DNA from: Hyphomicrobiales bacterium
GTDB lineage: Bacteria > Pseudomonadota > Alphaproteobacteria > Rhizobiales > Beijerinckiaceae
Assembly (NCBI GenBank): GCA_027484605.1
Contig: JAIXSR010000147.1
Span: 1 to 64,000, forward strand
Direction of reading: 5' to 3'
DNA: 64,000 bases
Part shown: positions 45,369 through 62,353 of the stretch, piece after piece
How the letters are laid out: every line of letters starts with the position of its first letter
Position numbering within the stretch: position 1 is the first letter of the stretch
Program-made: the position numbers and the translations under genes
Notes under the pieces: model-generated
What the model was told of the DNA's origin: nothing
Databases searched by the model: none
What the model saw: the letters and a program-made list of their open reading frames with translations, nothing else

Positions 45369-45530
45369 GGGGTCTTCCCGGGCATTCAGCCTATAAAATA
45401 ACCAACGAAAACAATAATTTGCGAATTCTATACGAGGAAACCCCCATTGCAACCGCCTTCTGGCTGTGGCATTCAGGAAGGATGCGCCGCCGCTTGAGAA
45501 TGGCGCAAGATTGATGGGTGGAGAAACGGC

Positions 45531-46496: not shown

Positions 46497-46535
46497 TCCT
46501 CCGTTCCGTTCGGAAAGACGGGAATCGCGGGCCAT

Positions 46536-46557
46536 CGGGCCGGCGGTTCCCGGCCCG
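46536..46557 (+). other. 8-bp stem hairpin between the TAXI binding protein and TRAP permease
   Basis: CGGGCCGG / CCGGCCCG pair perfectly around a 6-nt loop, 39 bp after the binding-protein stop. It resembles the mRNA-protecting structures seen after other binding-protein genes here. Confidence 0.5.
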
Positions 46558-46601
46558 TCGTGAACAGACATCCAGCCCCATCGAGATGAACAGGGCCCGC
46601 C

Positions 46602-48887
46602 ATGGCGCAAGCGCTTCCGCATGACCACCAGCCTTCCGCCCCGGTTGCCGTGGTCGATCCTGAACACGGGCTCCCGGACAATTTCGGCCAGGGCCGGGCG
46701 GCGATGATCCTGTTCTGGATCGCGGTGGCCTTCTCCGCCTTCCAGATCGTGACGGCCTTCGGCGTGCCCCTGGACAAGCCGATCCTCGGCACGATGACCG
46801 CCATTCATGTGCTGGACGGCGTCTTTGTCGCCTGGGCCGGCCTGCTGGTCTTCCGCAGCGTGACCGGGCGCGCCAGCCTGGCCGGCTGGGTTGCCTTCGC
46901 CACCCTTCTGGTCGCGCTCGTGCTGGTGCAGCGCTTCAATGGCAGCCTGCCGAACCAGGTTATCCGTACCCTGCACGTGGCCTTTCTCTGCCTCGTCGCG
47001 GGCGGGATGCTGGCGATCCACCGCTCCGCCCATGCCTGGGAGCGGGTGCTCTGGTGGTGCGTCGGCCTTGCCGGTTTCGGCGTCGGCGTCTTCCACTGGC
47101 ATTTCTACGAAGTGCTGGTGAACCGCGCCGGCGACATCACCCATCGCGAACTCTGGATCGGCGTGACCGCGCTCGCCATCCTCTTCCTGCTGATCTGGCG
47201 GGTGATGGGCATCGCCCTGCCCATCGTGGCGGGGATCTTCCTCGCCTATTGCCTGTTCGGGGAGATGCTGCCGGCCCCGTTCGACCATCGCGGCTACGCC
47301 TTCGATCAGGTGATCGAGCACATGGCCTATGGCACCGAAGGCATCTACGCCACGCCGACGCTGGTCTCCGCCACCTTCATCTTCCTGTTCATCCTGTTCG
47401 GTGCCTTCATGGAAAGGGCCGGCGTCATCGATTTCTTCAATGACCTGTCGATGGCCTTGTTCGGCGGCCAGCGCGGCGGACCCGGCAAGGTCTGCGTGGC
47501 CTCATCCGCGCTGATGGGCACGGTCTCCGGTTCCGGCGTCGCCAATGTCGTCGCCTCCGGCCAGTTCACTATTCCGCTGATGAAGCGCTCGGGCTTCAAC
47601 AGCGCCTTTGCCGGCGGCGTCGAGGCCACCTCGTCTATGGGCGGGCAGATCATGCCGCCGGTCATGGGGGCGGTGGCCTTCATCATGGCCGAGACGATCG
47701 ACGTGCCCTATTCCAAGATCGTCGAGGCGGCGATCATCCCGGCCATGCTGTATTTCCTCGCCTGCTACTGGGCCGTTCATCTGGAATCGCTGCGCCTCGG
47801 CCTTGTCGGTGTCCCGAAGGACCAGCTGCCCAGCGCCCGCGAGGAGATGCGCAAGAAATGGTTCCTGCTCGCCCCGCTCGGCGTGCTGGTCTACCTGCTC
47901 TTCGGCGGCTACACGCCCATCTTTGCCGGCGCCATCGGTCTTGCGCTCACCGTGGCGATGATCCTCGGCTCGGCCATCGTCATGGGCTTCGGCACGCTGG
48001 CGCTCCGCCTCGTCTTCTGGATCGGCTTCGCCCTGCTGGCGGCGGCCTCGATGGCCTACAGCATGGCGGCCGTCGTCATGGTCGTGCTGGCCCTCGTGAT
48101 CTGGAACCTGTTCCGCGGCCAGTCCGGCCGGACCGTGCTCGACCAATGCATCGTCGCCCTTGCCGACGGCGCCCGTCAGGCCCTGCCGGTCGGCCTCGCC
48201 TGCGCGGTGGTCGGCATCGTCATCGGCACGATGACGCTGACGGGCATCGGCACCATCTTCGGCGGCTGGCTGATCGGCATCGGCAAGAACAGCATGTTCC
48301 TTGCCCTGTTGCTCACCATGGTGTTCAGCCTCATCCTCGGCATGGGCATTCCCACCATTCCGAACTACATCATCACCTCGTCGCTGGCCGCGCCGATCCT
48401 GCTCGAACTGGGCGTGCCGCTGATCGTCAGCCATATGTTCGTCTTCTATTTCGGCATCATGGCCGATCTCACCCCGCCGGTTGCGCTCGCGGCCTTTGCC
48501 GCTGCGCCGATCGCGAAGGAAAGCGGGATGAAAATCGGCATCCAGGCGGTCAAGATCGCGCTGCCCGGCTTCGTGATCCCGTTCATGGCCGTTTATGATC
48601 CGAGCCTGATGCTGCAGCCGGTCAAGGGCCTGGCGGGGATGGACTATGCCCTGGCCGTGGCCTGGATCGTCATCAAGGCCACGCTCGCGATCATCCTCTG
48701 GGGGGCGGCCTTTACCGGTTATCTCCAGCATGCCCTGGCCGCGTGGGAGCGCATGCTGGCGGTGGCCGCGGCGGCATTGCTGGTGGCGGCTGTGCCGCTG
48801 ACCGACGAGATCGGCCTCGCCCTGTCAGCCTTGGTCATCGGCCATCATCTCTGGCGCGGGCGCCGGAAGCGCGCCGTTCCGGCATGA
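46602..48887 (+). CDS. TRAP transporter fused permease (4TM + 12TM)
   Basis: This is a 761-residue membrane protein in which the small and large TRAP permeases are one chain, the usual form in TAXI systems. The N-terminal third has several hydrophobic helices; the large-permease part shows ATFIFLFILFGAFMERAGVI, GTVSGSGVANVVASGQFTI, EATSSMGGQIMPPVMGA and LGMGIPTIPNYIITS. It is 105 bp after the binding protein and 10 bp before the DUF1850 gene. Confidence 0.92.
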   Translation: MAQALPHDHQPSAPVAVVDPEHGLPDNFGQGRAAMILFWIAVAFSAFQIVTAFGVPLDKPILGTMTAIHVLDGVFVAWAGLLVFRSVTGRASLAGWVAFATLLVALVLVQRFNGSLPNQVIRTLHVAFLCLVAGGMLAIHRSAHAWERVLWWCVGLAGFGVGVFHWHFYEVLVNRAGDITHRELWIGVTALAILFLLIWRVMGIALPIVAGIFLAYCLFGEMLPAPFDHRGYAFDQVIEHMAYGTEGIYATPTLVSATFIFLFILFGAFMERAGVIDFFNDLSMALFGGQRGGPGKVCVASSALMGTVSGSGVANVVASGQFTIPLMKRSGFNSAFAGGVEATSSMGGQIMPPVMGAVAFIMAETIDVPYSKIVEAAIIPAMLYFLACYWAVHLESLRLGLVGVPKDQLPSAREEMRKKWFLLAPLGVLVYLLFGGYTPIFAGAIGLALTVAMILGSAIVMGFGTLALRLVFWIGFALLAAASMAYSMAAVVMVVLALVIWNLFRGQSGRTVLDQCIVALADGARQALPVGLACAVVGIVIGTMTLTGIGTIFGGWLIGIGKNSMFLALLLTMVFSLILGMGIPTIPNYIITSSLAAPILLELGVPLIVSHMFVFYFGIMADLTPPVALAAFAAAPIAKESGMKIGIQAVKIALPGFVIPFMAVYDPSLMLQPVKGLAGMDYALAVAWIVIKATLAIILWGAAFTGYLQHALAAWERMLAVAAAALLVAAVPLTDEIGLALSALVIGHHLWRGRRKRAVPA

Positions 48888-48897
48888 CGGGCGCGCC

Positions 48898-49269
48898 ATG
48901 AGCGCCTGCCTGCTCGTCTCGGGAAAGGCGCTGGCCCTGGCCGCGCCGCTCTTCACCCTGGGCTGGACCCATTCGGTCGAGAAGGTCGAATGGGAGGAAA
49001 CCTGGCGCGTTGCCGGCACGACACTGGTGCTCGAACAGGCCCGCGTGAAGGCTTCCGGCGCCGGCATGGAACCTCCGCCGGAAGCCCGCCGCGTCGAGGG
49101 CTGGTATGTCTGGCACCCGCAGCGCATCGAGAGCCGGCTCATGCTGGCCGCCTCGGGCGCGACCGGCTCCGGCTGGCGGCTCTGTTCCGGCGGGCAATGC
49201 CATGTGCTGGGCGAGAATGCTGCCGGCCCCGTTCAGATCGAGCCCTGCCCGCCGTTCATCCGACCCTGA
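48898..49269 (+). CDS. DUF1850 domain protein accompanying the TAXI-TRAP system
   Basis: This is a 123-residue protein with the DUF1850 features LGWTHSVEKVEWEETWRV near the start and GSGMEPPP-like AGMEPPPEARRVEGWYVW in the middle. These genes very often follow TAXI-type permeases, but their function is not known; they may be periplasmic helpers. The last 14 bp overlap the convergent amidohydrolase gene. Two cysteines near the end (LCSGGQC) could pair. Confidence 0.85.
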   Translation: MSACLLVSGKALALAAPLFTLGWTHSVEKVEWEETWRVAGTTLVLEQARVKASGAGMEPPPEARRVEGWYVWHPQRIESRLMLAASGATGSGWRLCSGGQCHVLGENAAGPVQIEPCPPFIRP

Positions 49270-50629
49270 GGCGCCGCGCCCGGACCGGGCGGCCGATGCC
49301 GGGCGCGGCGACGATCTGCCCCTCCTTCGCCACCAGCTGCCCGCGCAGGAAGGTCATGACCGGCAGGCCCCGCGTCCGGAAGCCTTCGAACGGCGTCACA
49401 TTCCCGAGGGAGTGCAGGTCCTCGCCCCGGATCACGCCCTCCCGGTTCATGTCGATCACCACGAGATCGGCATCGGTGCCCGGCTGCAAGGTGCCCTTCT
49501 GCGGGAAAAGGCCAAAGGCGCGCGCCGGCGCGGCGCAGGCCATGCGGACGTAATCCGGCAGCGTGATCCGGCCATCATTCACGGCCGTCAGCATCAGGCG
49601 CATCGAGGTCTCGACCCCCGGAAAGCCCGGCGCGACATCCCAGATCGAGCCGCGCCGCTTCTCGGCCGGGGCATGGGGCGCATGGTCGGTCGAGATCATG
49701 TCGATCACGCCGCTCGCCAGCGCATCCCAGAGCGGGCCGGCATGCCCGGCTTCCCGCACCGGCGGCTTGACCCGCAAGGCGAGATCGCCGACGCGCGGGG
49801 CATCCTCCATACTCAGATAGAGATAATGCGGGCAGGTCTCGGCAGTAATGTCCACGCCCCGCCGCTTGGCAGCGGCGATCAGCGGCAGGGAGTGCCGGCA
49901 ATTCTCGTGGGCGATATGAACAGGGCAGCCGGTCCATTCGGCAAACAGCGCGATCCGCGAGACAGCTTCGACCGTCGCGATATCGGCATGCTGTTCGAGA
50001 TGGGCGGCGAGGTCGTGGCGTCCCGCCGCTTTCAGCTTCGCGCCCCGCCAGGCGAGGATCGGCGTGTTTTCCGCATGAACGGTGCAGCGGATGCCAAGCC
50101 CGGCGAGAATGCCCAGCGCATCGAGCACGGCGCCGTCATTCGGGCAGGGCACGAGCGGGTTGTCACTGCCGAGATAGAGCTTGAACGCCACGGCGCCCGC
50201 CTCGGCCATCGGTGCGAGCTGGTCGAGATTGCCCTCGCCGATATAGCCATAGACACCGAAATCGACCAGGGCCTGCGCCGAGGCGAGGGCCAGCTTGGCG
50301 CGGACGGCGCCGGCATCGGCTGTCGGCGGGTTGGTGTTCGGCATGTCGAATACGGTGGTCACGCCGCCGATGGCCGCGGCGCGCGTGGCGGTTGTCCAGG
50401 TCTCCTTGTGGGAGAAACCGGGTTCGCGGAAATGGACATGAACGTCCAATGCGCCGGGAATGACATGGTGCCCGGCAACGTCGATGACCTGCCGGGCGGG
50501 CGGCATCGCCGCATCATGGCCCAGCGCAACGATCCGGCCATCATGCACGGCGACCGCGCCCGGCCGCATTCCCTCGGGCGTGACGAGCATCCCCCCGGCA
50601 AGCACCAGATCGATCGGTCCGGCTGTCAT
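49256..50629 (-). CDS. cyclic amidohydrolase 1 (dihydroorotase/allantoinase/hydantoinase family)
   Basis: This is a 457-residue TIM-barrel hydrolase that opens cyclic amide or ureide rings using a binuclear metal site. Ligands are in DVHVHFREPG, the carboxylated Lys in FKLYLGS, His in TVHAEN and HIAHENC, and Asp in STDHAPH. Allantoinase, dihydroorotase and dihydropyrimidinase share these, so the ring opened is uncertain. It overlaps the upstream deaminase gene by 4 bp and is last in the ten-gene operon. A second paralogue lies at 57305. Confidence 0.85.
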   Translation of the reverse strand: MTAGPIDLVLAGGMLVTPEGMRPGAVAVHDGRIVALGHDAAMPPARQVIDVAGHHVIPGALDVHVHFREPGFSHKETWTTATRAAAIGGVTTVFDMPNTNPPTADAGAVRAKLALASAQALVDFGVYGYIGEGNLDQLAPMAEAGAVAFKLYLGSDNPLVPCPNDGAVLDALGILAGLGIRCTVHAENTPILAWRGAKLKAAGRHDLAAHLEQHADIATVEAVSRIALFAEWTGCPVHIAHENCRHSLPLIAAAKRRGVDITAETCPHYLYLSMEDAPRVGDLALRVKPPVREAGHAGPLWDALASGVIDMISTDHAPHAPAEKRRGSIWDVAPGFPGVETSMRLMLTAVNDGRITLPDYVRMACAAPARAFGLFPQKGTLQPGTDADLVVIDMNREGVIRGEDLHSLGNVTPFEGFRTRGLPVMTFLRGQLVAKEGQIVAAPGIGRPVRARRLRVG

Positions 50630-52080
50630 GGCATTGCCCTCGTTATGGCCTCGGCAACGGCAAAGAGATCCGCATTGCGGGCCTTGAGGCTTGCGATCCG
50701 GTCGCGGATCTCCGCCAGCGCGCCGGCCGCGTCGAAGCTGGTGACCCGCCCGTCCTCGACCAGGACGCGGCCATCGACCAGGACATGCGAGACCGCTGCG
50801 CCCGTTTCCGCAAAGACCAGCTGCGCCACCGGGTCATTCACCGGCACCCACCAGGGATGATCGAGCCGGTAGAGAACGAGATCGGCCCGGAAGCCCGGCG
50901 CAAGAACCCCGATCTCGCCTTCCCGGCGAAGCGCCTTCGCGCCGCCTTCCGTCGCCATGCGCAGCGCATCGCGCGCGCCGACCCAGCGCGAGCGGTCGGG
51001 CAGATCCGCGCGATGCAGCAGGGCGGCGGCGCGCATGGCCTCCTGCAGGATCAGGTTGTCATTGGCGCCGGAGCCATCCGTGCCGAGCGCGATCGGCAGG
51101 CCGGCGGCGAGCATGTCCGGTGTCCGCATGCGCCCGGCGCCGATCCGGGCATTGCTCTCCGGATTATGAACAGCGACCACGCCATGTCCGGCCATCCGCG
51201 CGATATCGTCATCGGTCAGCCAGATGCAATGGGCGCAGGACCAGCGCCCGGACAGAACGCCGAGCCGGTCGAGATGCTCGACCGTGGTCATGCCGTAGCG
51301 GCGGGCCGCAATCTCGGCCTGCGCCCGTGTCTCCAGCAGATGCGTATGGATGCCGAGATCATGCTGCCCGGCCAGTTCGGCGCAGAAGACCAGAGCCTCG
51401 TCGCTGCACCGGTCCGGGTTCGACGGCGCCGGGAAGACGCCGATCCGCCCCGCATGGCCATGCCAGCGACGCACGATTTCCGGCATTTCCTCGCGCAGGG
51501 CGGCAAGGGGATGCGGCTTGAGGATGTCCACCGAGGCGGCAGCCGCCGCCAGGTCGGGTGGCAGCCCGGCTCCGGCAGGAAGGATATCGCCGAATGCGCC
51601 ATCGAAAAACCGCATGCCCAAGGTCGCGCGCATCCCCGTTTCCGCCCAGGCGGAAAGCACGGCATCCATCTCGGCAATCGAGAAGCGCTGGCCGGGGAAA
51701 TGGTCGATCACCGCCGTGGTGCCGCTCTGCAGCATCTGGGCCGCGCAGAGCAGCACGGCGAGGCGGATCTCGTCGGGATTCCGGCGGGAGGTATGGGCCT
51801 GGGTCAGCCACATGAAGGCGGGGTGGCTCAGCCGGTCGCCGAACCCCGCCATCGTGCCGGATTGTGAATGCATATGCGCATTCACCAACCCCGGAACCGC
51901 GAGCATGCCGCGGGCCTCGATCACCCGGTCAACAGGGGCGAGTGCGTCATCCGGCAAAGCACCCAAAGCGGCGATCACGCCATCGCGGATCAGGATATCG
52001 CCGGTCTGGTGGATCCGGGCCTCATCATCGAGGGTCAGGATCATCGCTTGCCGGATCAGCACGGTCCCGCTTTTCAGCAT
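50626..52080 (-). CDS. amidohydrolase of the ATZ/TRZ deaminase group 1
   Basis: This is a 484-residue metal-dependent hydrolase, typically deaminating or dechlorinating aromatic N-heterocycles or their nucleosides. Metal and catalytic residues are seen in NAHMHS, GIHTHLLETRAQ, CAHCIWL and LGTDGSGAND. Relatives act on guanine, 8-oxoguanine, methylthioadenosine/S-adenosylhomocysteine, cytosine-type or s-triazine rings. The gene is coupled by overlap with its neighbours (4 bp and 7 bp). Confidence 0.85.
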   Translation of the reverse strand: MLKSGTVLIRQAMILTLDDEARIHQTGDILIRDGVIAALGALPDDALAPVDRVIEARGMLAVPGLVNAHMHSQSGTMAGFGDRLSHPAFMWLTQAHTSRRNPDEIRLAVLLCAAQMLQSGTTAVIDHFPGQRFSIAEMDAVLSAWAETGMRATLGMRFFDGAFGDILPAGAGLPPDLAAAAASVDILKPHPLAALREEMPEIVRRWHGHAGRIGVFPAPSNPDRCSDEALVFCAELAGQHDLGIHTHLLETRAQAEIAARRYGMTTVEHLDRLGVLSGRWSCAHCIWLTDDDIARMAGHGVVAVHNPESNARIGAGRMRTPDMLAAGLPIALGTDGSGANDNLILQEAMRAAALLHRADLPDRSRWVGARDALRMATEGGAKALRREGEIGVLAPGFRADLVLYRLDHPWWVPVNDPVAQLVFAETGAAVSHVLVDGRVLVEDGRVTSFDAAGALAEIRDRIASLKARNADLFAVAEAITRAMP

Positions 52081-53081
52081 GGCAGCAGGCCTCCGCCCGC
52101 GAGGTCGACCGCGAGCCCGCGGCCCTCCGCTTCGGCGCGGTCGACGAGATGCGCCGCGAGGATCACATCCTGAATGGCAAGGCCCATCGACTTGAACACC
52201 CGCAGGTCGCTGCCTTCCGAAAGGGGCAGCCCGCGCGCCGGAACGGCTCCGATCTCCGCCCGGATCCGCGCCGGCACCAAAGCCCCGCTTTCCAATGCGA
52301 GCCGGATATCGCCCGCCTTGTCGATCGCGCCCTGCCGGGCATCGAGATAGAGATCGGCGCGCTGCATCAGCGCATCATCGGCCTCACGCGCCTCCGGGCG
52401 GTTCGCGCCGCCGAGGATGATGCAGGCACCGGGTTTCGCCGCCGCGCCGGGAAAGACCGGGCGATCCGAAGTCGTGACCGTGGCAATCAGATCCGCCCCC
52501 GTGACAGCCGCTTCCGGCGAGGCCGCGCAGACAATCCGGGTATCGGCAAGCTCCGGCCAGAGCGCCGCCTGCGCGGCAAGGGCCTGCACGCGTCCGGGCG
52601 TACGGCCGGCCAGCCGGATCTCGCGGATCGAGGGGCGAACGGCCTTGAGATAACGCAGGGTCAGCGGTGCGCTCTTGCCAGCGCCGAACAAGGCGAGGAT
52701 CCCGGCATCCGCAGCCGCGAGCCTGTCTGCCCCCGCCGCAAAGCCCGCCGCCGTGCGATGCTCGTTGAACAGCCGCGCCGAAAGCAGGGCCCGTGGTTCC
52801 GCCCGCCGCCAGTCCCAGAGCGTCAGCAGGCTGCCCCAGAGGCGGGGGGATTCCGGCCCGTCCGGATAGGCATGCACATTGCTTTTCACCGCGAGGGTAT
52901 CCGCGCCATGGGCGCCGGCCAGGACCAGACAACCCGCCTTCGGATCCGCATGCCTCAGATCGCCCCGGACCGGCGGAGCCGCCGAACCCCTGGCATGCAG
53001 CCGATAGGCAAGATCCGCGCAGTCCAGCGCTGCAGGAAAGGTGATCAGCGCCTCGATATCGGCCTCGCTCAGGATGCGCAT
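52074..53081 (-). CDS. ornithine cyclodeaminase / mu-crystallin family protein
   Basis: This is a 335-residue NAD(P)-binding protein of the OCD family: VRGDLRHADPKAGCLVLAG with the substrate-binding Arg, LALFGAGKSAPLTLRYL Rossmann motif, ADLIATVTTSDRPVF and SMGLAIQDVILA. Family members include ornithine cyclodeaminase, ketimine reductase, and alanine or pyrroline dehydrogenases. The start at 53081 is 5 bp after the stop of the preceding amidohydrolase. In this operon it may act on an imine or amino acid released by ring opening; that is inference. Confidence 0.85.
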   Translation of the reverse strand: MRILSEADIEALITFPAALDCADLAYRLHARGSAAPPVRGDLRHADPKAGCLVLAGAHGADTLAVKSNVHAYPDGPESPRLWGSLLTLWDWRRAEPRALLSARLFNEHRTAAGFAAGADRLAAADAGILALFGAGKSAPLTLRYLKAVRPSIREIRLAGRTPGRVQALAAQAALWPELADTRIVCAASPEAAVTGADLIATVTTSDRPVFPGAAAKPGACIILGGANRPEAREADDALMQRADLYLDARQGAIDKAGDIRLALESGALVPARIRAEIGAVPARGLPLSEGSDLRVFKSMGLAIQDVILAAHLVDRAEAEGRGLAVDLAGGGLLPC

Positions 53082-53085
53082 GGTC

Positions 53086-54531
53086 TCAGCAGCATCCGAG
53101 ACGCTGCAGGTAATGGTTCCGCACGGCGGTTTCGAATGCCGGCAGGGCGGCGCCGAACGCCGTCCGCCTGGCCATGCCGGCCCGATAGGCAGACCGAAGC
53201 TCCCGATGCGCCGCGCCGAGATCGACGCCGACCACGCGGCCCCGGCTGACAATGGTCCGGCCAGCGACGATCACCTCCCGGATATGGCTCCGGTTGGCGC
53301 GGGCAAACATCAGTTCCAGCGGATCGACCGGCATCAGCGCGTCGTCATCGAGCGCCGCCCGGTCAACCAGCACCAGGTCGGCGGCCGCGCCCTCGCGGAG
53401 CACCCCGCCGGCCGGCGCACCAATGGCGATACGCCCGTTTTCTAGCGCCATCCGCAGGATATCCGACGGCGCGAGTTCCGTGTCGAAACCCCAGCCGGCA
53501 TGGAGCGACCAGAGCAGGCGCATCTCGCGCAGCGCGTCGTCATCCTCGTCGAAGGCCTGCCCGTCAATGCCGAGCGCCACGCGGCAGCCGCGGCGCAGCA
53601 TCTCCGCCACCGGGGCGATGCCGGAACGCAGGGCAAGGTTGGAGGAGGCATTGGTGGCGATGACGCATCCGGCTTCGGCGATCATCTCCAGTTCGTCGGG
53701 CCGGGCCCAGACACAATGGGCCAGCGTGAGCCGCGGCGAGAGCAGGCCGATTTCCTTCCAGCGGCGTACAAGCCCGCCGGGATAGTTCCGGTCGGCCCAG
53801 TCGCGCTGGTATTTCGTCTCGAAGAGATGCGTCGTCACGCGGCGGCCGGTGCGGGCGGAAGCCTCGGCAATCGCTTCCCACAGCGCCTCTGAACACCATT
53901 GCGGCCCGTTCGGCCCGTACTGGACATCGACCATCGGCCCGCCGACGGCCTCGGCCACCGCATCGACCTGGGCAAGCTGCTCACGGATCGGCGGCACCGG
54001 GCCGAGAAAACGCTCCTCGATGGCCTGCCTTTCATCCCCCGGCAGCGCAGCCAGCACGCCGGCATGATCGCCATAGACGAGCGGGTTCTGGTCGCGCAGG
54101 CCGATCCCGTAGGCGATCCGCACCCCGACATCCCGCGCCGCGCGGGCGATTTCCGCGGCTTCCACGGGCAGGTCGGTCAACCCCATGGCCCGGGTGGCAT
54201 GGACCATGACGCTGCCCTGGCCACCGAGCGCGGCCCGGGCCAGCGGCGCCAGTGCCGCGAGATAGGGATCGACCGGTACCATCAGCGCCAGCCGATGCAG
54301 CCAGGTCTCCAGCGGCCGGCCGAAACCGCCGATGGAACTGGTCCGCAAGGGACGCGCATGGTCATGCGCATTCGCGAGGGCCGGGAGAACCACCACATCC
54401 TCGCCGGCATCCGCGGCCGGCTCGATCGCATGGATCAGCCCGCCCTCGAGAAGGATCCGGCGTTCGGCGAAGCCGCCTTGCGCATCGACCCCGTGACGGA
54501 CGGCAATCTCGCGCGGGGCTGGCTTCGTCAT
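53086..54531 (-). CDS. amidohydrolase of the ATZ/TRZ deaminase group 2
   Basis: This is a 481-residue metal-dependent hydrolase. Ligands are seen in NAHDHARPL, VTTHLFETKYQR, LAHCVWARPDELE and LGIDGQAFDEDDDAL; the second His in the N-terminal HxH motif is preserved (HDH). It resembles the neighbour at 50626 in layout but has diverged strongly. ATG at 54531 is preferred to GTG at 54534, with GAGGGCGGG upstream. Two different deaminases in one operon suggest sequential removal of amino groups or two related substrates. Confidence 0.82.
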   Translation of the reverse strand: MTKPAPREIAVRHGVDAQGGFAERRILLEGGLIHAIEPAADAGEDVVVLPALANAHDHARPLRTSSIGGFGRPLETWLHRLALMVPVDPYLAALAPLARAALGGQGSVMVHATRAMGLTDLPVEAAEIARAARDVGVRIAYGIGLRDQNPLVYGDHAGVLAALPGDERQAIEERFLGPVPPIREQLAQVDAVAEAVGGPMVDVQYGPNGPQWCSEALWEAIAEASARTGRRVTTHLFETKYQRDWADRNYPGGLVRRWKEIGLLSPRLTLAHCVWARPDELEMIAEAGCVIATNASSNLALRSGIAPVAEMLRRGCRVALGIDGQAFDEDDDALREMRLLWSLHAGWGFDTELAPSDILRMALENGRIAIGAPAGGVLREGAAADLVLVDRAALDDDALMPVDPLELMFARANRSHIREVIVAGRTIVSRGRVVGVDLGAAHRELRSAYRAGMARRTAFGAALPAFETAVRNHYLQRLGCC

Positions 54532-54542
54532 CACGCCCGCCC

Positions 54543-55586
54543 TCAGCTCTTCGGTGCCGCGAGCTTGCGATCGGCCAGCGGCGGCAGGAAGGAGCGGTTG
54601 AACACATCCGCCATGGTCGGGGCCTTGGGCAGCCCGAACGCTTCGACAATCTGCGCGATCGCCTTGCCCATCCGCTCGTCCGAGACATCGCCCGCGCCGA
54701 TCTTGTCGGTTTCCGGCGTGAACATATGGGCGCGGTAGGTGAACTCGACGCGCTTGGCCTCGATCTCCGGATTCACCGTCGGCTCGACCCGGGCCATCAC
54801 CTTGCCGGCTTCGGCCGGGTTGGCGGTCAGTTCCAGCATCGCGCGGTTGACGGCGCGCACCAGCCCGGCCACGGCCTTGGGGTTCTCGCGGATGAGTTTC
54901 TGCGACACCATCACGCCATTCGAATAGGCTTCGATGCCGTGATCGGAATACATGATGAACTTGTAGTCCTTGTCCGGGTTCAGGCGCATCCCGATCAGGT
55001 TCATGTAGGAGGTGACGGTGAAGACGAAGCCGCCATCGACCTGGCCCTGAACCATCATCATTTCCTGGACTGACGGGGCGATATTCACCACCTCGACCTT
55101 GCTCGCATCGAGGCCGTTGAGCTTGGCGAAGATCGGGAACAGGCGGTGCGTGGCCGAGCCGGCCGGCGAGGTCAGCTTGCGCCCCTCGAGGTCCTTCAGC
55201 GTCTTGATCGGGCTGTCCGCCTTGTGGATGATCGCGAAGGGCGCCTTGTTGTAGATCATGTAGACCATGACCGGCGCCTCGCCCGGCTTGTTGACCGCCT
55301 GCTGGATGATGGCGTTCATGTCGCCGAACCCGGCATCATAGGCGCCGGACATGATCCGCGTGACGGTGGCGGCCGAGCCTTCGCCCTGGTCGATCGTCAC
55401 GTCGAGGCCTTCGGCGGTGAAGTAACCCTTTTCCTTGGCGTAGAAATACCAGGAATGGACGCCCTGGTATTTCCAGTCGAGCGTGAAGCGGATCTTGGTC
55501 GGGCTCTGGGCGGAAGCGGGTGCCGCGAGGCCGAACGTGGCGGCGGCAAGGGTGGCAAGGGCAGTCTTGAGGAAAAGGCGACGCAT
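54543..55586 (-). CDS. ABC substrate-binding protein, THI5/NMT1-like, copy A
   Basis: This is a 347-residue periplasmic protein with a Sec signal ([22 protein letters not shown]). The mature start [15 protein letters not shown] and [21 protein letters not shown] are typical of the THI5/NMT1-like group that binds pyrimidines, thiamine precursors, sulfonates, or other small heterocycles. It works with the permease and ATPase just upstream. It is a clear paralogue of the protein at 59577. Confidence 0.88.
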
Positions 55587-55619
55587 GGAATTCTCCTGGA
55601 GGGCTGGGGAGAGAGAGCG

Positions 55620-55649
55620 AGGTCTTTCAGGGCAAGGTCTTTCAGGGCG
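55620..55649. repeat. 15-bp tandem duplication across the permease stop codon
   Basis: AGGTCTTTCAGGGCA at 55620-55634 is repeated at 55635-55649 with one change at the last base. The unit is five codons long and includes the permease stop, so a second in-frame stop lies 15 bp further on. It appears to be a slippage duplication without coding effect. Confidence 0.85.
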
Positions 55650-56424
55650 AGGCGAGATCGGTCTTCCGGTGGGCCCAGCCCGTGACCCGGTGCTCGATCA
55701 GCGAGAACAGGACGTAGAGCGTGACACCCAGCCCCGCGAGAACGAACAGGCCGGCAAAGACCAGAGGCACGTTGAAGCTGGAGGAGGCGATCATCATCAT
55801 GTTGCCGATGCCCCGGTTGGAGGCGACAGTCTCGGCCACGACGGAGCCGACGAAGGCGAGCGTGATCGCCACTTTCAGTGCCGCGAAGAAATAGGGCATC
55901 GAGCGCGGGAGGCTGACATTCCAGAGGATGTCGAGCTTCGACGCCTTGAGCGTCTTCATCACATCCTCGAGCTCGGGCTCGACCGTGGCGATCCCGGTGG
56001 CGACATTCACCACGATCGGGAAGATGCAGATGATCATGGCCGTCAGGATGGCCGGCACCGTGCCTGCCCCGTACCAGAGCACGAAGATCGGCACGACCGC
56101 GACTTTGGGGATCGACGAGAAGCCGACCAGCAGCGGATAGGCCGTGTCATAGGCGAGCCGCGACGAGCCGATCAGCACGCCGAGGAACAGCCCGATCGCC
56201 ACGCCGATGCTGAACCCGACCAGTGTCGTATAGAGCGTCTGGTAGGTATGCGGCCAGATGGCCGGCCAGAACTTCACCAGGGCGGCGACGATCTGGGTCG
56301 GGCGCGGCAGCAGGATATCGGAGATGTTGGCCACGAGGCAGAACAGCTCCCAGGCCACGAAGAATCCGAGGATCAGCGCGGTCGAGGCGCCCTTTTCCCG
56401 CAAGGTGTCGAGAATCCGTTCCAT
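55642..56424 (-). CDS. ABC transporter permease (SsuC/TauC type)
   Basis: This is a 260-residue inner-membrane protein with six spans and a cytoplasmic loop [21 protein letters not shown] carrying the EAA-like motif. This permease type forms homodimers, so one gene is enough. It lies between the ATPase and binding protein copy A. A GGAGGGA ribosome site precedes ATG at 56424. Confidence 0.9.
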
Positions 56425-56435
56425 CGGGTCCCTCC

Positions 56436-57308
56436 TCAGGCCGTGCCGGGCTGATGGCTGACAATGCCGGTGCCGCCCCGCGCGCCGACGATCATCGCGC
56501 GCAGCTTCTGGTTCAGTTCGACGAAATCCGGCTGGAAGGTCATGTCGATCGTGCGCGGGCGCGGCAGGTCGACGATCTGGTCGTCAAGGATCCGGCCCGG
56601 CCTTGCGCTCATCACGCAGATCCGGCTGGCGAGATAGGCCGCCTCGCGCAGGTCATGGGTGACGAGCATGACCGTCAGCTTCTTGGACAACCAGAGATCC
56701 TGCATCACGGCCCACAATTCCTCGCGGGTGAACTGGTCAAGCGCCCCGAAGGGCTCGTCGAGCAACAGCAGGTCCGGGTCATGCACCAGGGCGCGGCAGA
56801 GGTTGGCCCGCTGCATCATGCCGCCGGACAGCTGGTAGGGATATTTCTCGGCAAAGCCGGCAAGGCCGACTTGCTTGAGCAGGGCCTCGACACGATCCCG
56901 GAACTCGCCCTTCCGCTTGGCGCGGAAGGCCTGCCGGAAAGGCGGGACGATCTTCAGCGGCAGCATCACGTTGTCGCGGATATTGAGCCAGGGCAGCAGG
57001 GTCGGGTTCTGGTAGGCCATGCCGATCCGGATCGGATTGGCGCCGATCTCGCGGCCGGCCACGAAGACATAGCCCGTGCTCGGCTTGAGCAATTCGCCGA
57101 CCATCTTCAGGATCGTCGACTTGCCGCAGCCCGAAGGGCCGACAAGCGCCATGAATTCGCCCTCGGTGATCTTCAGCGAGGTCGGGGCCAGCGCCTGCAC
57201 GGCCCGCGCGCCCTTGCCATAGGTGATCGAGGCATTCTCGAATTCAATGAAAGGGGCGGGGCCTGCCGCCCCGGTGCCGGCTTCGGCCGATCGGACCTGG
57301 GCATTCAC
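56436..57308 (-). CDS. ABC transporter ATP-binding protein (SsuB/TauB type)
   Basis: This is a 290-residue ATPase with Walker [11 protein letters not shown]-loop MAYQNPTLLPW, signature LSGGMMQRANLCRA, Walker B LLLLDEPFGALD and switch VTHDLREAAYL. The start is GTG at 57308 after AGGAGG; it overlaps the stop of the preceding amidohydrolase as GTGA. It drives the importer used by both binding proteins of the operon. Confidence 0.92.
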   Translation of the reverse strand: MNAQVRSAEAGTGAAGPAPFIEFENASITYGKGARAVQALAPTSLKITEGEFMALVGPSGCGKSTILKMVGELLKPSTGYVFVAGREIGANPIRIGMAYQNPTLLPWLNIRDNVMLPLKIVPPFRQAFRAKRKGEFRDRVEALLKQVGLAGFAEKYPYQLSGGMMQRANLCRALVHDPDLLLLDEPFGALDQFTREELWAVMQDLWLSKKLTVMLVTHDLREAAYLASRICVMSARPGRILDDQIVDLPRPRTIDMTFQPDFVELNQKLRAMIVGARGGTGIVSHQPGTA

Positions 57309-58759
57309 GATGCGCCTCCTTGGATGGGCAGGGCTGGCCCTCGCAAGACTGCGGCCAATGTCTGGTCGGTATTGCGCGGCCGGGGCGTCGGCATGCGCTG
57401 GATCGCCGTGACCTGCCGGCCCCAGCCGCTGGTTTCCTCGACGAGGCGACGGTCGCGCTGGACGAAACGGCCCCGGACCAGCGTATGGATTGGCACGCCG
57501 GTGACCGGCACGCCCTCGAACGGCGTGATTTTGGCGCGCGAATGCAGGCCCGCCGCGGTGATCGTCTCGGTCCGCTCAAGATCGACCACGGCGATATCGG
57601 CATGCGCGCCGGCCTCGATCCGCCCCTTGGCCGGCCAGAGGCCGAAGGCACGCGCCGGATTCTCGGCCGAGATTTTCACATAATGCTCAAGCGTGATGCG
57701 CCCGCCTGCCACTTCATTCAGCATCAGGGGCATCTGCGTCTCGACGCCCGGGAAGCCGCAATCCGCTTCCCAGATGACGCTCTTGCTCTTTTCCTCCGGC
57801 GTATGGGGTGCGTGGTCGGTGGCGATCATGTCGACCACGCCGGTCTGCAGCGCCTGCCAGATCGCGGCGGAATCGTTCGCCTCGCGCACCGGCGGATTGA
57901 CGCGGATGATCGAGCCGAGCCGGGCATAGTCCCGGCTGTCGAGCAGCAGGTAGCAGGGGCAGGTTTCGCCCGTGATATCGACGCCGCGCGCCTTGGCATC
58001 GGCCAGCGGGCGCAATTCCGCCGCCGAGGAGATATGCAGCACATGGATGCGGGCGCCGGTCCATCCGGCAAGCTCGGCCGCGCGGCTTACCGCCTCCGCC
58101 GCCACGATGGCGGGTCGGGCGGCGATATGGGCGAGCGGGTCGTTCCGACCGGCTTCCATCAGCCTTTTCTGCCGCCACGCCATGATCGAGGCCGTTTCGG
58201 CATGGAGCGAAATCCGGAGCCCGGACGGCGCGATGATCTCGAACCCTTCGAGCATCGCCCCGGTCGAGGGCGAGGGCAGGTTGCCGAACGTGTTGCCCAT
58301 GAAGCATTTGAACGCGTTCACGCCGCCATCGATCAGCCCCTGCAGCTCGTCGATATTGTCTTCGGCGAGCAGGCCATAGATGCCGAAATCGACATGCGAT
58401 TTCTCCGCCGCCTGCTGCTTCTCGCGCAATTCGCGCACCGAACGGGTCGGCGGATGGGTGTTCGGCATCTCGAAGACCGTGGTTGTCCCGCCCATCGCCG
58501 CAGCGGCGCTGCCGGTCCGCCAGTCTTCCTTGTGGGTGTAGCCCGGCTCACGGAAATGGACATGCACGTCGATCGCGCCGGGCAGGAGGTACTTGCCGCC
58601 GACATCGACCACCTCGCGCGCGGCCGGCATGGCGGAGGGCTCGCCCACCAGCGCGATCAGACCATCCTTGATGGCGATGTCGGCGCGGTATCGCGTCATG
58701 CCGGTGACGACGGTGCCGCCGGTCAGGACCAGATCGGCGAGGAAAGGTTCGGTGCTCAT
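57305..58759 (-). CDS. cyclic amidohydrolase 2 (dihydropyrimidinase/allantoinase/dihydroorotase family)
   Basis: This is a 484-residue paralogue of the product at 49256. Metal ligands are in DVHVHFREPG, carboxylated Lys in NAFKCFMGNTFG, His in SLHAET and HVLHIS, and Asp in ATDHAPH. The loop after the carboxylated Lys differs from copy 1 (FGNLPSPSTGAML), implying another substrate or ring size. It follows the SDR gene after 7 bp and overlaps the ATPase gene. Confidence 0.85.
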   Translation of the reverse strand: MSTEPFLADLVLTGGTVVTGMTRYRADIAIKDGLIALVGEPSAMPAAREVVDVGGKYLLPGAIDVHVHFREPGYTHKEDWRTGSAAAAMGGTTTVFEMPNTHPPTRSVRELREKQQAAEKSHVDFGIYGLLAEDNIDELQGLIDGGVNAFKCFMGNTFGNLPSPSTGAMLEGFEIIAPSGLRISLHAETASIMAWRQKRLMEAGRNDPLAHIAARPAIVAAEAVSRAAELAGWTGARIHVLHISSAAELRPLADAKARGVDITGETCPCYLLLDSRDYARLGSIIRVNPPVREANDSAAIWQALQTGVVDMIATDHAPHTPEEKSKSVIWEADCGFPGVETQMPLMLNEVAGGRITLEHYVKISAENPARAFGLWPAKGRIEAGAHADIAVVDLERTETITAAGLHSRAKITPFEGVPVTGVPIHTLVRGRFVQRDRRLVEETSGWGRQVTAIQRMPTPRPRNTDQTLAAVLRGPALPIQGGAS

Positions 58760-58766
58760 CCGGACC

Positions 58767-59561
58767 TCACAGCATTGCCCAGCCGCCATCGACCGGCAGG
58801 TCGACGCCGCTGATCTGGCGGGAGACTTCGGAAGCGAGGAACAGGCAGGCATGGGCCACGTCCTCGTCGGTCGAGACGCGGCGCAGCGCATAATCGGCCG
58901 CGTGCTTCTGGACCGCCTGCTCCTCCGTGATCCCCAGCCGCGCCGCCATTTCCGGCACCACCTTGCCCCGGAAGCGGGGGCCATCGACCATGCCGGGCGC
59001 CACGCAATTCACGTTGATATTGTAGGGCCCCGCTTCCAGCGCGAAGCTCTTGGTGATGCCGCGCAGGCCCCATTTCGAGGCGGAATAGGCCATGCGGCCG
59101 GCACGGCCGCGCATGCCGAAGGTTCCGCCGACATTGACGATCTTGCCATCGCGCTGGGCGATCATGGTCGGCAGGCAGGCCCGCATCGTGTTGAAGCAGC
59201 CGCGCATGTTGAGATCGACGATCTCGTCGAATTCGGCCTCGGTCGTTTCCCATCCGGTCTTGCCGATCGGACCCGAGCCGCCGGCCACATTGACAAGCAC
59301 GTCGACGCGCCCCCCGAAGGCCGCTTTCGTCTCGGCAATCGCCGCATCGCAGGCTTCACCCCGGGTGATGTCGCAGGCGATCACGATCGCCTCGGCACCC
59401 CCGGCCCGCATCTCGGCGGCAACCGGCGCGATGGCAGCCGTGTCGCGGCCGAGCAGGGCCAGCTTGCTGCCCTCCGCCGCAAAGGCGCGGGTGATCGCTG
59501 CGCCCATGCCTTTGGCGGGGCCGGTGATCACCACCACCCGGTCCTTCAGTTTCAGATCCAT
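58767..59561 (-). CDS. short-chain dehydrogenase/reductase with altered catalytic serine
   Basis: This is a 264-residue SDR with NAD(P) motif TGPAKGMGAA, NVAGG strand, catalytic YSASK and C-terminal RQISGVDLPVDGGW. The residue 13 before the catalytic Tyr, normally Ser, is Gly, with Thr next to it (VNVGGTFG). Arg at the end of strand 2 (LLGRD) favours NADP. It is second in the operon, after binding protein copy B, and may reduce the imported ring or a carbonyl made from it. Confidence 0.82.
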   Translation of the reverse strand: MDLKLKDRVVVITGPAKGMGAAITRAFAAEGSKLALLGRDTAAIAPVAAEMRAGGAEAIVIACDITRGEACDAAIAETKAAFGGRVDVLVNVAGGSGPIGKTGWETTEAEFDEIVDLNMRGCFNTMRACLPTMIAQRDGKIVNVGGTFGMRGRAGRMAYSASKWGLRGITKSFALEAGPYNINVNCVAPGMVDGPRFRGKVVPEMAARLGITEEQAVQKHAADYALRRVSTDEDVAHACLFLASEVSRQISGVDLPVDGGWAML

Positions 59562-59576
59562 GATCGCGGTTCCGGC

Positions 59577-60641
59577 TCAGGTCAGCTTGGTGATGCGGTC
59601 GGCAGGCGGCGGGAGGTAGGCGCGGCTGAAGATTTCCGCCGGTGCCGGGCTGCGCGGCAGGCCATCCGCCTCCACGACAATGCCGATCGATTTGGCGAAC
59701 CGGGCATCGTCGATATCCCCGAGGCCCAGCTTCGCGAGTTCGGGATGGCTCATCTCGTCGGCCAGCGTCGCGAGCAGGCGCTCCTTCTCGACGACCTTGT
59801 TGATCAGCGGCTCGCGCTTGGCTACGGCATCGACAGCGGCATCCGGGTCCTTCAGCGTGTCCTTCAGGCCCTTGTTGATGGCCGCCAGCAGCCCCCTGAG
59901 CGCGCCCGGATTCTCGTTGACGAGCTTGCGCGAGGCGATGACCGCGTTGGAATAGAGGTCCATGCCGAAATCGCCGTAATTGATGAACCGGAAATCCTTG
60001 TCCGGATCGATCCCGACAAGCTTGGCCGAGAAGCGGATCGTGTTGACGAAGCCGAAAACGCCCTCCACCTGGCCGCGCTGGAGCATCTGCTCGCGCAGGT
60101 TGGGCTGCATATTGGTGATCTGCACCTTCGCCGGGTCAATGCCGACCTGCTTGGCAAAGGCCGGGAACAGTTTCAGCGCACCGTCATTGGCCGGCCCGCC
60201 CAATGTGCGGCCCTCGAAATCCTTCGGCGTCTTGATCGGCCCGTCGGCCTTCACCGCGATGGTGAAGGGGGGGCGGTTGTAGAGTGCGGAAATCGCCAGC
60301 GGCGTGTTGCCGCCGGCGGGGCCCTTGGCCACGAGCTGGATCAGCGCATTGATGTCGCCGAAGCCGAGATCGTAGGAGCCGGATGCCACCGCGCCGACCG
60401 CAGCCCCCGAGCCATTGCCCTGGTCCATCGTGATCTCGAGCCCGGCCTCGCGGAAATAGCCCCGGTCCTCGGCGAGGAAGAACCAGCCCTGCGGCCCCTG
60501 GTAGCGCCAGTTCAGCACCATTTTCAGCCGCGTGAGCGATTGGGCGATGGCCGGGCGCGGCAGCGTCGACGCCAGCGCGGCGCCACCCAGACCGAGGCCG
60601 AAGACCCGTCGCGAAATCCGTCCTGCTTCATCCGATGCCAT
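59577..60641 (-). CDS. ABC substrate-binding protein, THI5/NMT1-like, copy B, Tat-exported
   Basis: This is a 354-residue periplasmic protein and first gene of the operon. The signal contains SRRVFGLGLGGAALAS, a twin-arginine motif, in contrast to the Sec signal of copy A. The mature start VLNWRYQGPQGWFF and DQGNGSGAAVGAVASGSYDLG parallel copy A. Both presumably dock on the same SsuBC-like core, giving one importer two ligand ranges. Confidence 0.88.
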   Translation of the reverse strand: MASDEAGRISRRVFGLGLGGAALASTLPRPAIAQSLTRLKMVLNWRYQGPQGWFFLAEDRGYFREAGLEITMDQGNGSGAAVGAVASGSYDLGFGDINALIQLVAKGPAGGNTPLAISALYNRPPFTIAVKADGPIKTPKDFEGRTLGGPANDGALKLFPAFAKQVGIDPAKVQITNMQPNLREQMLQRGQVEGVFGFVNTIRFSAKLVGIDPDKDFRFINYGDFGMDLYSNAVIASRKLVNENPGALRGLLAAINKGLKDTLKDPDAAVDAVAKREPLINKVVEKERLLATLADEMSHPELAKLGLGDIDDARFAKSIGIVVEADGLPRSPAPAEIFSRAYLPPPADRITKLT

Positions 60642-60755
60642 GTGAGCGACCCCTTGTTCAGACAGGAGCGGACGCTAGGGGAGTTGACCGATGCCGTCTT
60701 CTGCTTATTTCTTGCCGGACCTGTTCGAAAAAAGCACCGCCTGGAGAGGTTGGCC

Positions 60756-61679
60756 GTGAAGCATCTGCGCCTGCTGCACTATGTCGACGAGGTGGCCCGC
60801 GTCGGTTCGATCCGGCGGGCGGCCGAGCGCCTCAACCTCACGGCCTCCGCCCTCAACCGCCGCATCCAGGATATCGAGGAGGAACTGGGCACGCCGATCT
60901 TCGAGCGCCTGCCCCGTGGCGTGCGGCTCAATGCGGCCGGCGAATTGCTGATCCGGCATATCCGGACCCAGCTCGCGGATATGAGCCGCGTGCGCTCGCA
61001 GATCGAGGATCTCTCCGGGTTCCGCCGCGGCACCGTCTCGATCGCCTGCAGCCAGGCGCTGGCCTATGAGCTGCTGCCGAGCGTCATTGCCGCGTACCGG
61101 CATGAATTCCCGCTTGTGGAATTCGAGGTGAAGGTCCGCGACCATGCCGATGCCCTGAGGGCGCTGGCGGATTTCGAGGTCGATCTCGCCATGGTGTTCC
61201 GGCCCTCGGTCATGGCGGATTTCCAGGTCCTGGCCTCGGTCGAGCAGCGCGTCGTGGCGATCCTGGCAGCCGATCATCCGCTGGCTGCGCGGCCCAGCCT
61301 CCGCCTGCGCGATTGCGCCGACTATCCTCTGGCCTTGCCCGATCCGAGCTATGGCGGACGCCAGCTTCTGGACGAGGCGACGGCGCGCAGTTCTTTCCGC
61401 TTCGAGGCCGTCGTCGAATCCAATTCCTTCGAGTTCCTGCGCAATTATGTGCGCTTCGAACAGGCCATCACCTTCCAGATCGAGGTCGGCGCGCCGGCGA
61501 CCCTGAAGGAACGGCATGGCCTCGTCTCGCGGCCGGTCGACCTGCGTGACATGCAGCCTGCCCGGCTGGCCATGGGGCAATTGCGCGGCCGCGCCCTGCC
61601 GGTGGCGGCAGCCAAGTTCGCGGAGCAGCTCGGCCGGCGGTTCACCGGGCCGCCGGTCACATCCATTTCGGAACCGTGA
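60756..61679 (+). CDS. LysR-family regulator, divergent from the ten-gene operon
   Basis: This is a 307-residue regulator with an N-terminal winged helix (SIRRAAERLNLTASALNRRI and LGTPIFERLPRG) and the usual effector domain. A GTG start at 60756 is chosen for the GGAGAGG ribosome site and because the family pattern begins there (KHLRLLHYVDEVA). It is head-to-head with the operon (114-bp gap), the standard layout for a LysR activator of a catabolic operon. Its end overlaps the LOG-family gene by 23 bp. Confidence 0.88.
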   Translation: MKHLRLLHYVDEVARVGSIRRAAERLNLTASALNRRIQDIEEELGTPIFERLPRGVRLNAAGELLIRHIRTQLADMSRVRSQIEDLSGFRRGTVSIACSQALAYELLPSVIAAYRHEFPLVEFEVKVRDHADALRALADFEVDLAMVFRPSVMADFQVLASVEQRVVAILAADHPLAARPSLRLRDCADYPLALPDPSYGGRQLLDEATARSSFRFEAVVESNSFEFLRNYVRFEQAITFQIEVGAPATLKERHGLVSRPVDLRDMQPARLAMGQLRGRALPVAAAKFAEQLGRRFTGPPVTSISEP

Positions 61680-62247
61680 CCTTCCGGAAACTCATCAGCC
61701 CGTCGATCAGCAGGCCCGGCTCGGGCTGCACCACGATGCCGTTCCGGTGTTCCGGCGGCAGGAACCGCTGGCCGATCATGTGGTCGATGAAGGCGAGGAA
61801 AGGCTGATAATAGCCGGCCACGTCGAGAAGCCCTGCCGGCTTGTCGATCTCGCCGAGCTGGTTCAGCGTCCAGATCTCCATGAATTCCTCCAGCGTCCCG
61901 ATCCCGCCCGGCAGGGCGATGAAGGCATCAGCCAGTTCGGCCATCCGTGCCTTCCGGGCCCGCATGGAGCCCACGATCTCGCTGGCATCGAGGTCCGGGT
62001 GCAGGTGGCCGCGATCCGCGAGGCGCTGCGTGATCACGCCATGCGCCGTGCCGCCCGCCGCGCGCGCGGCATCGGCCAGCAGGCCCATCAGCCCCTTGTT
62101 GGTGCCGCCATAGACCAATGTCAGCCCCCGGCTGCCAATGGCATGGCCAAGCCTTTTCGCGGCCTCGATATAGGTATCGCCGAGCCCGGTATTCGATCCG
62201 CAGAAGACGGCGATGGACCGGATGGGGCGGGGGGCTTCTTGCGACAT
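61657..62247 (-). CDS. LOG-family nucleotide phosphoribohydrolase
   Basis: This is a 196-residue protein of the lysine-decarboxylase-like/LOG fold (TIGR00730 type). The signature PGGIGTLEEFMEIWTLNQLG is intact, with the Arg of SMRARKARM upstream, as in active cytokinin-nucleotide phosphoribohydrolases. Such enzymes hydrolyse purine or pyrimidine 5'-monophosphates to base and ribose phosphate. Placed next to the amidohydrolase operon it could supply or recycle bases, but the family is also widely scattered. Confidence 0.85.
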   Translation of the reverse strand: MSQEAPRPIRSIAVFCGSNTGLGDTYIEAAKRLGHAIGSRGLTLVYGGTNKGLMGLLADAARAAGGTAHGVITQRLADRGHLHPDLDASEIVGSMRARKARMAELADAFIALPGGIGTLEEFMEIWTLNQLGEIDKPAGLLDVAGYYQPFLAFIDHMIGQRFLPPEHRNGIVVQPEPGLLIDGLMSFRKVTVPKWM

Positions 62248-62353
62248 GGGGCAGGGCTCGCGGGCTGGAAATGGGGCAGGCGGACATTCCGTACTTGCCG
62301 GGAGCCCCGGGCATTTGCAACATCACCGGGTGATTCCGCACGGGAAAGGACCG

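Follow-up and report, generated by a model that had tools for sequence, protein, structure and literature searches.

A 64,000-nucleotide stretch of DNA from a Hyphomicrobiales bacterium of the Beijerinckiaceae (contig JAIXSR010000147.1; hereafter the window) carries a putative ten-gene operon that, judging from the family composition of its genes taken alone, very probably imports a nitrogen heterocycle, deaminates it, and hydrolyzes it as a cyclic amide. Its genes are, in order, sbp1, sdr, hydB, an ATP-binding cassette (ABC) transporter pair, sbp2, atzA, ocd, atzB, and hydA (Table 1), of which atzA and atzB are labels given here. In other genomes, relatives of atzA or hydB were found to be physically linked to the gene of cyanuric acid hydrolase, AtzD. 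This linkage was absent from an earlier interpretation made without database searches, which is called the sequence-only reading below. Since several lineages encode AtzD within the operon itself or a short distance away, a substrate of the s-triazine or purine-oxidation kind is the most likely one. On the basis of this genomic linkage, we give a roughly even chance to the view that the heterocycle is an s-triazine, a cyclic ureide, or an oxidized purine, and that the operon scavenges the nitrogen of such an amino-substituted azaheterocycle or cyclic ureide.

Linkage of the Cluster Family to AtzD

For atzA, the marker gene of this cluster family, 442 relatives were obtained when each species was represented by one genome, and the best 80 of the 442 were taken as named loci. 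Loci are cited by numbers with L, whether or not they belong to these 80. Of the 80 loci, 8 also contain AtzD, directly downstream of atzA in 7 and approximately 5 kb upstream in L084. It also resides in the cluster on a Skermanella plasmid, and it stands alongside hydB-like genes with no atzA in L162, L163, and L164. In L077, the ring-opening protein next to atzA gave 558 bits with the cyanuric acid hydrolase model NF052395 (cut-off 360), and its best structure match was 4nq3, an enzyme of Azorhizobium caulinodans. Barbiturases are described as having Gln at the position corresponding to Arg188 of cyanuric acid hydrolases (PMC4051656). Arg188 was kept in the linked ring-openers of all 9 atzA loci, in all 3 that stand beside hydB-like genes, and in the copy of the window's own genome, a count that leaves out 11 of the 23 AtzD loci from the set of chosen genomes described below. 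Asn occupies position 188 in L154 and L155, which are other copies in two genomes. Judged by Arg188, the ring-openers linked to these genes belong with the cyanuric acid hydrolases and not with the barbiturases.

AtzD was detected in 54 of 297 same-order genomes. It was present in 31 of the 42 genomes with atzA versus 23 of the 255 without, and in 19 of 21 with hydB versus 35 of 276 without. RutA, an unrelated pyrimidine gene, was used as a control. Where same-order genomes hold both genes, AtzD lies within 60 kb of atzA in 13 of 31, of hydB in 8 of 19, and of RutA in 1 of 9; physical distance separates atzA and hydB from RutA better than co-occurrence does. The 13 genomes with close atzA and AtzD represent 5 genera, and the binomial p of 2e-12 obtained for the 60-kb linkage assumes a 3% chance per genome. 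A further set of 30 genomes was drawn by hand from the 80 named loci, mostly carriers of the core genes defined below; AtzD was found in 17 (16 above the cut-off) and in none of the other 13.

The window's own genome holds a triuret/cyanuric acid locus on contig C111 (L134). It encodes BiuH (421 bits, cut-off 370), AtzD (542, cut-off 360), AtzE (678, cut-off 425.75), a second BiuH-like protein, a Bmp-type binding protein, and ABC genes. The second BiuH-like protein is TrtA-like, as it gave 317 bits with 6XIX versus 226 bits with the biuret hydrolase 6XJM; 6XIX is identified as the triuret hydrolase TrtA in PMC7948467. This locus has the sole genomic copy matching TIGR02714, and no cyanuric acid hydrolase gene was present among the family matches of the operon.

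In L162, a large subunit of a CoxL/XdhA-type molybdenum hydroxylase (7682–10063) separates AtzD from the hydB-like gene, and another lies beside the hydB-like gene in L165 (10466–12799); small subunits were not obvious near either of them. An apparently similar open reading frame (ORF) occupies the same place in L163 (7211–9829).

Core and Add-On Genes in Other Genomes

Of the 80 named loci, 26 have hydB at no more than 10 kb from atzA, when counted at an identity of at least 59% over at least 380 positions, a threshold that misses broken or cut copies such as that of L106. The ocd–atzB–hydA set was found in 4 of the 80, namely L053 and L054 (metagenome-assembled genomes of Beijerinckiaceae), L055 (Bosea vaviloviae), and L057. 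This difference, 26 for hydB versus 4 for hydA, divides the operon into a core (sbp1, sdr, hydB, the ABC pair, sbp2, and atzA) and an add-on (ocd, atzB, and hydA). The sequence-only reading had treated the ten genes as one fixed set and proposed a search for it in other genomes. That search recovered the core on plasmids, in same-order genomes, and in the named loci, including those of Halomonadaceae, and it showed the last three genes to be optional.

On plasmids of Azospirillum TSH58 and Skermanella, the gene order as annotated is LysR, binding protein, SDR (short-chain dehydrogenase/reductase), (hydB), ABC pair, binding protein, atzA, FmdA, and DUF3830, followed on the Skermanella plasmid by a ring-opening amidohydrolase. 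The sbp1 protein is 60–73% identical to its counterparts in other clusters, and sdr is 68–82% identical where it adjoins hydB. Since other genomes hold the same gene groups, the grouping goes beyond chance. The position of lysR beside sbp1 recurs as well, and the window's fmdA protein is 56% identical to the Skermanella counterpart over 307 positions, starting from residue 51. The LOG-family gene, which had been described as a neighbor of the operon, is indeed present, but it is no mere neighbor because LOG genes recur beside related clusters. They follow atzA, AtzD, and DUF3830 in L050, lie between FmdA and a binding protein in L125, close the series hydantoinase-like gene, DUF3830, FmdA, LOG in L172, and stand beside LysR in L056, L057, L113, and L121. 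LOG and FmdA are thus recurring partners rather than random neighbors.

The spread of atzA is patchy. It was detected (E ≤ 1e-60) in 42 of the 297 same-order genomes. These 297 include 2 further members of the genus and 9 further members of the family, none of which holds it. The OCD-family protein was found in 1 of 385 class-sampled genomes (E ≤ 1e-45), the window's own. No publication on this cluster was found in a literature search; it is composed of known enzyme families in an arrangement for which no description was found.

Variant layouts were also seen. In a second layout, mostly of Bradyrhizobium (L126, L129, and similar loci), ABC genes, one binding protein, and atzA occur with no hydB in the locus, together with a GntR-FCD regulator, a cytosine-deaminase-like amidohydrolase, and a small protein that is apparently SnoaL-like. 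In the Halomonadaceae loci L097, L113, and L121, the core is preceded by a BiuH/RutB-family-like protein and followed by an ArgE/DapE-type deacylase in place of AtzD. A carbamoylase was considered for the Halomonas loci and rejected, since in L097 the scores of the M20 protein identify it as a deacylase of the ArgE/DapE type. A megaplasmid stretch of Novosphingobium sp. RL4 (L052, L028) contains scattered relatives of hydB, SDR, LysR, DUF3830, LOG, and atzA; it comes from outside the orders on which the analysis was centered.

Individual Proteins

Amidohydrolases of the ATZ/TRZ type (subtype III) are marked by metal-binding and catalytic residues in the pattern HxH, H, E, H, D. Residues H56, H58, H235, E238, H272, and D323 of atzA were invariant across 34 aligned sequences; we take H56, H58, H235, H272, and D323 to be metal ligands or catalytic residues. 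Residues and fold together place atzA, the one protein examined in this way, in subtype III. Its AlphaFold model (predicted local distance difference test score, 92.5) retrieved S-adenosylhomocysteine/methylthioadenosine (SAH/MTA) deaminases, TrzN, AtzA, isocytosine deaminase Vcz, and guanine deaminases in Foldseek. The protein ends in Cys-Cys (window positions 53086–53100); among 83 relatives of atzA that were collected, 57 have exactly this end, and the majority of the remainder carry a Cys only a few residues from the C-terminus. The tail is of low confidence in the model.

The second enzyme of this type, atzB, gave 276.8 bits with the 8-oxoguanine deaminase model NF006055 and atzA gave 117.9 bits, versus a cut-off of 532, so that atzB probably acts on another substrate than 8-oxoguanine. 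Enzymes of the AtzB cluster are reported as promiscuous and as including N2,N2-dimethylguanine hydrolases (PMC13054789). A pairing of atzB–hydA with the ATZ-like and hydantoinase-like genes of L162 and L163 proved weak. The ATZ-like proteins there are 34–35% identical to atzB and gave 181–188 bits with the 8-oxoguanine deaminase model.

The two cyclic amidohydrolases showed the family motifs HxH, Lys, His, His, and Asp by eye. Both narrowly missed the allantoinase AllB cut-off of TIGR03178 (hydB 353.3 and hydA 351.5 versus 357.85 bits), and both exceeded the cut-off of TIGR00857 (pyrC_multi; 338.9 and 319.4 versus 279.05 bits). In the tree, hydA forms its own clade (support 100/100) apart from that of hydB (97/98), by which a recent tandem duplication of hydB was rejected as the origin of hydA. 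The hydA clade was joined to the L162-type clade with a support of 83/94. Relatives of hydA on haloarchaeal plasmids were set aside because their neighborhoods differ.

For ocd, the OCD-family assignment made from the sequence is borne out by PF02423, but the protein does not score as ornithine cyclodeaminase proper; it gave 36.4 bits with NF005762 (cut-off 350), scored with an over-long start. The best models were of the reductase type, and the best PDB match was thiomorpholine-carboxylate dehydrogenase. The protein is probably an NAD(P)H-dependent imine reductase of the ketimine-reductase-like branch. The PDB matches of sbp2 include THI5 (4h6d) and the ThiY-type 3ix1, which relate it distantly to THI5/ThiY-type pyrimidine-binding proteins. 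Neither binding protein reached the cut-off of the aliphatic sulfonate binding protein model TIGR01728 (sbp2 76.1 and sbp1 61.4 versus 163.5 bits). The LOG protein exceeded TIGR00730 (172.5 versus 96.35 bits) and fell below the cytokinin model NF058542 (122.5 versus 300 bits).

Proposed Function and Alternatives

For the substrate and for each reaction we infer the following scheme. LysR would control a combined uptake and catabolism unit, in which the ABC importer with its two binding proteins would bring in an amino-substituted azaheterocycle or a cyclic ureide. The atzA enzyme would strip the exocyclic amine and hydB would open the cyclic amide, while the SDR may oxidize or reduce a carbon of the ring or of a side chain; FmdA would then cut the amide product, and LOG may release the base where it occurs as a nucleotide. 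The OCD-family reductase, atzB, and hydA, present in the lineage of the window, would process either another ring related to the first or an intermediate formed later. The combination of a THI5-like importer with two ATZ/TRZ-type enzymes and two cyclic-amide hydrolases, already recognized in the sequence-only reading, was supported by the matches above; the double deamination and the opening of two rings that it proposed are conjectural.

Several observations weigh against the s-triazine or purine-oxidation assignment. AtzD co-occurs with the RutA control as well (9 of 18 genomes with RutA versus 45 of 279 without), and by genus AtzD accompanies RutA in 9 of 13, atzA in 14 of 19, and hydB in 8 of 8; the co-occurrence is therefore in part a matter of general catabolic breadth. 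As for proximity, 7 of the 13 genomes with close atzA and AtzD come from one genus, and 13 of 31 versus 1 of 9 gives p = 0.12. AtzD was found in 14 of the 24 chosen genomes with the hydB core and not in the other 10, which makes it a frequent but not a necessary partner; the set without AtzD includes three Halomonadaceae loci together with L055 and L057, the latter two of which hold the OCD–atzB–hydA set of the window. In the window's genome, AtzD lies on another contig than the operon. The substrate of atzA could differ greatly, since its nearest folds include SAH/MTA deaminases. Finally, we know of no hydB-type enzyme that acts on s-triazines.

The operon could instead serve a pyrimidine-type pathway, in which a modified pyrimidine resembling hydroxymethylpyrimidine (HMP), 5-methylcytosine, or isocytosine is imported, atzA deaminates it, and hydB opens the oxidized or reduced ring; the AtzD linkage would then represent a barbiturate-like step or a general clustering of catabolic genes. 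The THI5 and ThiY-type matches of sbp2 and the presence of Vcz among the nearest folds of atzA fit such a pathway. The molybdenum hydroxylases adjoining hydB-like genes in L162 and L165 are in line with ring hydroxylation, and DIOX_N-type 2-oxoglutarate oxygenases occur in L093 and L171. We nevertheless regard it as somewhat unlikely, as Arg188 (together with NF052395 where scored, as in L077) assigns the ring-openers in linkage to the cyanuric acid hydrolase type and no match to RutA (TIGR03612) was found in the genome, which also speaks against the Rut pathway. Breakdown of HMP from thiamine was set aside, for it fits the binding proteins and FmdA and nothing else supports it. Creatinine or N-methylhydantoin breakdown was likewise set aside because it would not explain the AtzD linkage.

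That hydA and hydB are variant allantoinases, with the operon serving ordinary purine catabolism of allantoin or an analog, is very unlikely. Their TIGR03178 scores come just short of the AllB cut-off, some orthologs are annotated as AllB in database records, and carbamoylase-family genes exist elsewhere in the genome. The cut-off was missed all the same, the family matches of the operon contain no ureidoglycolate or allantoate gene, and two ATZ-type deaminases and the AtzD linkage are foreign to allantoin breakdown. A pathway that degrades N-alkylated or cytokinin-like purines, in which LOG would free the base, ATZ-type enzymes would remove an alkylamine, and the OCD-family enzyme would then act on that amine, appears highly improbable. 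It is favored by the LOG gene adjoining the operon and by relatives of the atzB class that are reported to hydrolyze N2,N2-dimethylguanine (PMC13054789), but the cytokinin and 8-oxoguanine deaminase cut-offs were far from reached by LOG and atzB, and the cyclic amidohydrolases are given no clear role.

None of the established systems compared here matches the operon as a whole. Catabolism of cyanuric acid, biuret, and triuret (AtzD, BiuH, TrtA, AtzE, AtzH) resembles it in that AtzD shares the operon of atzA in some relatives and lies within 60 kb in others, and that AtzH/HpxZ-like, amidase, and BiuH/RutB-like genes stand beside atzA in relatives; AtzD, BiuH, and AtzE are, however, not in the window operon. 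To our knowledge, these pathways are without hydA, hydB, the SDR, and an NMT1-type importer, all of which the operon has. The s-triazine aminohydrolases TrzN, AtzA, AtzB, and AtzC share the amidohydrolase subtype and fold, but the window proteins are approximately 20–25% identical to them in the fold alignment and reach no equivalog cut-off. The allantoinase/D-hydantoinase/dihydroorotase group includes hydA and hydB, which nevertheless remain below the allantoinase and D-hydantoinase cut-offs and form a family of their own with linkage to an SDR. The pyrimidine pathways Rut and Pyd have an NMT1-type importer and a dihydropyrimidinase-like enzyme in common with the operon, whereas RutA is missing from the genome and dihydropyrimidine dehydrogenase and ureidopropionase are absent from the operon's matches. 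Among NCBIfam families, atzB comes closest along its entire length to the group of 8-oxoguanine deaminase and N2,N2-dimethylguanine hydrolase, yet its score is about half the cut-off (276.8 versus 532 bits). The statement that the gene set fits no standard pathway is upheld by the missing RutA and by the missing carbamoylase in the operon, though the latter was incomplete, as 3 genes of the carbamoylase family TIGR01879 lie above the cut-off elsewhere in the genome.

Many bacteria hold cyanuric acid hydrolases, and a conserved operon for uptake and deamination that is linked to AtzD directs attention to upstream substrates. It would also assign functions to hydrolases now annotated just as "amidohydrolase family protein" or "allantoinase". 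Cyanuric acid is described as not known as a natural product (PMC4051656), and oxidatively damaged DNA or uric acid has been named as its source (PMC3758960; PMC7948467). Oxidation of uric acid can yield triuret and cyanuric acid (PMC7948467), guanine oxidation leads to guanidinohydantoin and iminoallantoin, and 8-oxoguanosine leads to a cyanuric acid nucleoside (PMC7589758). A distinctly unlikely extension of our preferred assignment is that the operon family is dedicated to salvaging nitrogen from such oxidized purines, for example from guanine or urate oxidation products of the iminoallantoin, hydantoin, or triazine type, and supplies natural cyanuric acid to cyanuric acid hydrolases. It is consistent with all observations and singled out by none of them; if true, this pathway would be the missing natural cyanuric acid source for the ancient and widespread cyanuric acid hydrolases of soil bacteria.

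Organization of the Gene Run

The window corresponds to nearly all of contig C28 (64,010 bp) in a genome of 4.0 Mb. ORF coordinates bore out the leftward run of ten genes from 60641 to 49256 with a largest gap of 55 bp; the gaps in order from sbp1 are 15, 7, −4, 11, 55, 11, 4, −7, and −4 bp. Pfam and NCBIfam likewise agreed with the families proposed before: NMT1 (two), BPD_transp_1, ABC_tran, adh_short, OCD_Mu_crystall, and Amidohydro_1 (four, two of the dihydroorotase/allantoinase type and two of the ATZ/TRZ type).

Table 1. Features of the operon and its surroundings in the window.
Feature	Position	Strand	Assignment	Support
sbp1	59577–60641	−	First operon gene; NMT1/THI5-like periplasmic binding protein	PF09084, 123 bits
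sdr	58767–59561	−	Short-chain dehydrogenase/reductase; mostly accompanies hydB	PF00106, 172 bits
hydB	57305–58759	−	Core cyclic amidohydrolase, allantoinase/dihydroorotase type	TIGR03178, 353.3 bits; TIGR00857, 338.9 bits
ABC transporter ATP-binding protein	56436–57308	−		PF00005, 109 bits
ABC transporter permease	55642–56424	−	SsuC/TauC-like	PF00528, 92 bits
sbp2	54543–55586	−	Second NMT1/THI5-like binding protein	PF09084, 128 bits
atzA	53086–54531	−	Divergent ATZ/TRZ-type amidohydrolase, likely deaminase	PF01979, 115 bits
ocd	52074–53081	−	OCD/mu-crystallin family; add-on module	PF02423, 117.5 bits
atzB	50626–52080	−	Second ATZ/TRZ-type enzyme, putative deaminase; add-on module	NCBIfam best match 8-oxoguanine deaminase, 276.8 bits
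hydA	49256–50629	−	Second cyclic amidohydrolase; add-on module	TIGR03178, 351.5 bits
lysR–sbp1 intergenic region	60642–60755		Divergent; presumed control region	From sequence
lysR	60756–61679	+	LysR-family regulator, divergent	HTH_1 and LysR_substrate
LOG family	61657–62247	−	Phosphoribohydrolase-like	TIGR00730, 172.5 bits (cut-off 96.35)
fmdA	62213–63301	+	Acetamidase/formamidase family; true start probably ~62363	PF03069, 115.5 bits

Mechanical ORF calling overextends two starts, that of hydB to 58984 and that of the OCD gene to 53252; the starts at 58759 and 53081 were adopted because the family matches fit these. The lysR start at 60756 was picked from the reading frame and an upstream GGAGAGG. 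A scan of the lysR–sbp1 intergenic region gave no strict T-N11-A palindrome, and a common LysR box was rejected, as a palindrome scan of 17 intergenic stretches gave none. Beyond the operon, a gene for a DctM-type TRAP permease lies at 46602–48887 (+). It is overlapped by an ORF of 842 amino acids at 44793–47321 (−), whose long 5′ part is probably noncoding, since the family match is confined to the C-terminal redoxin-like part.

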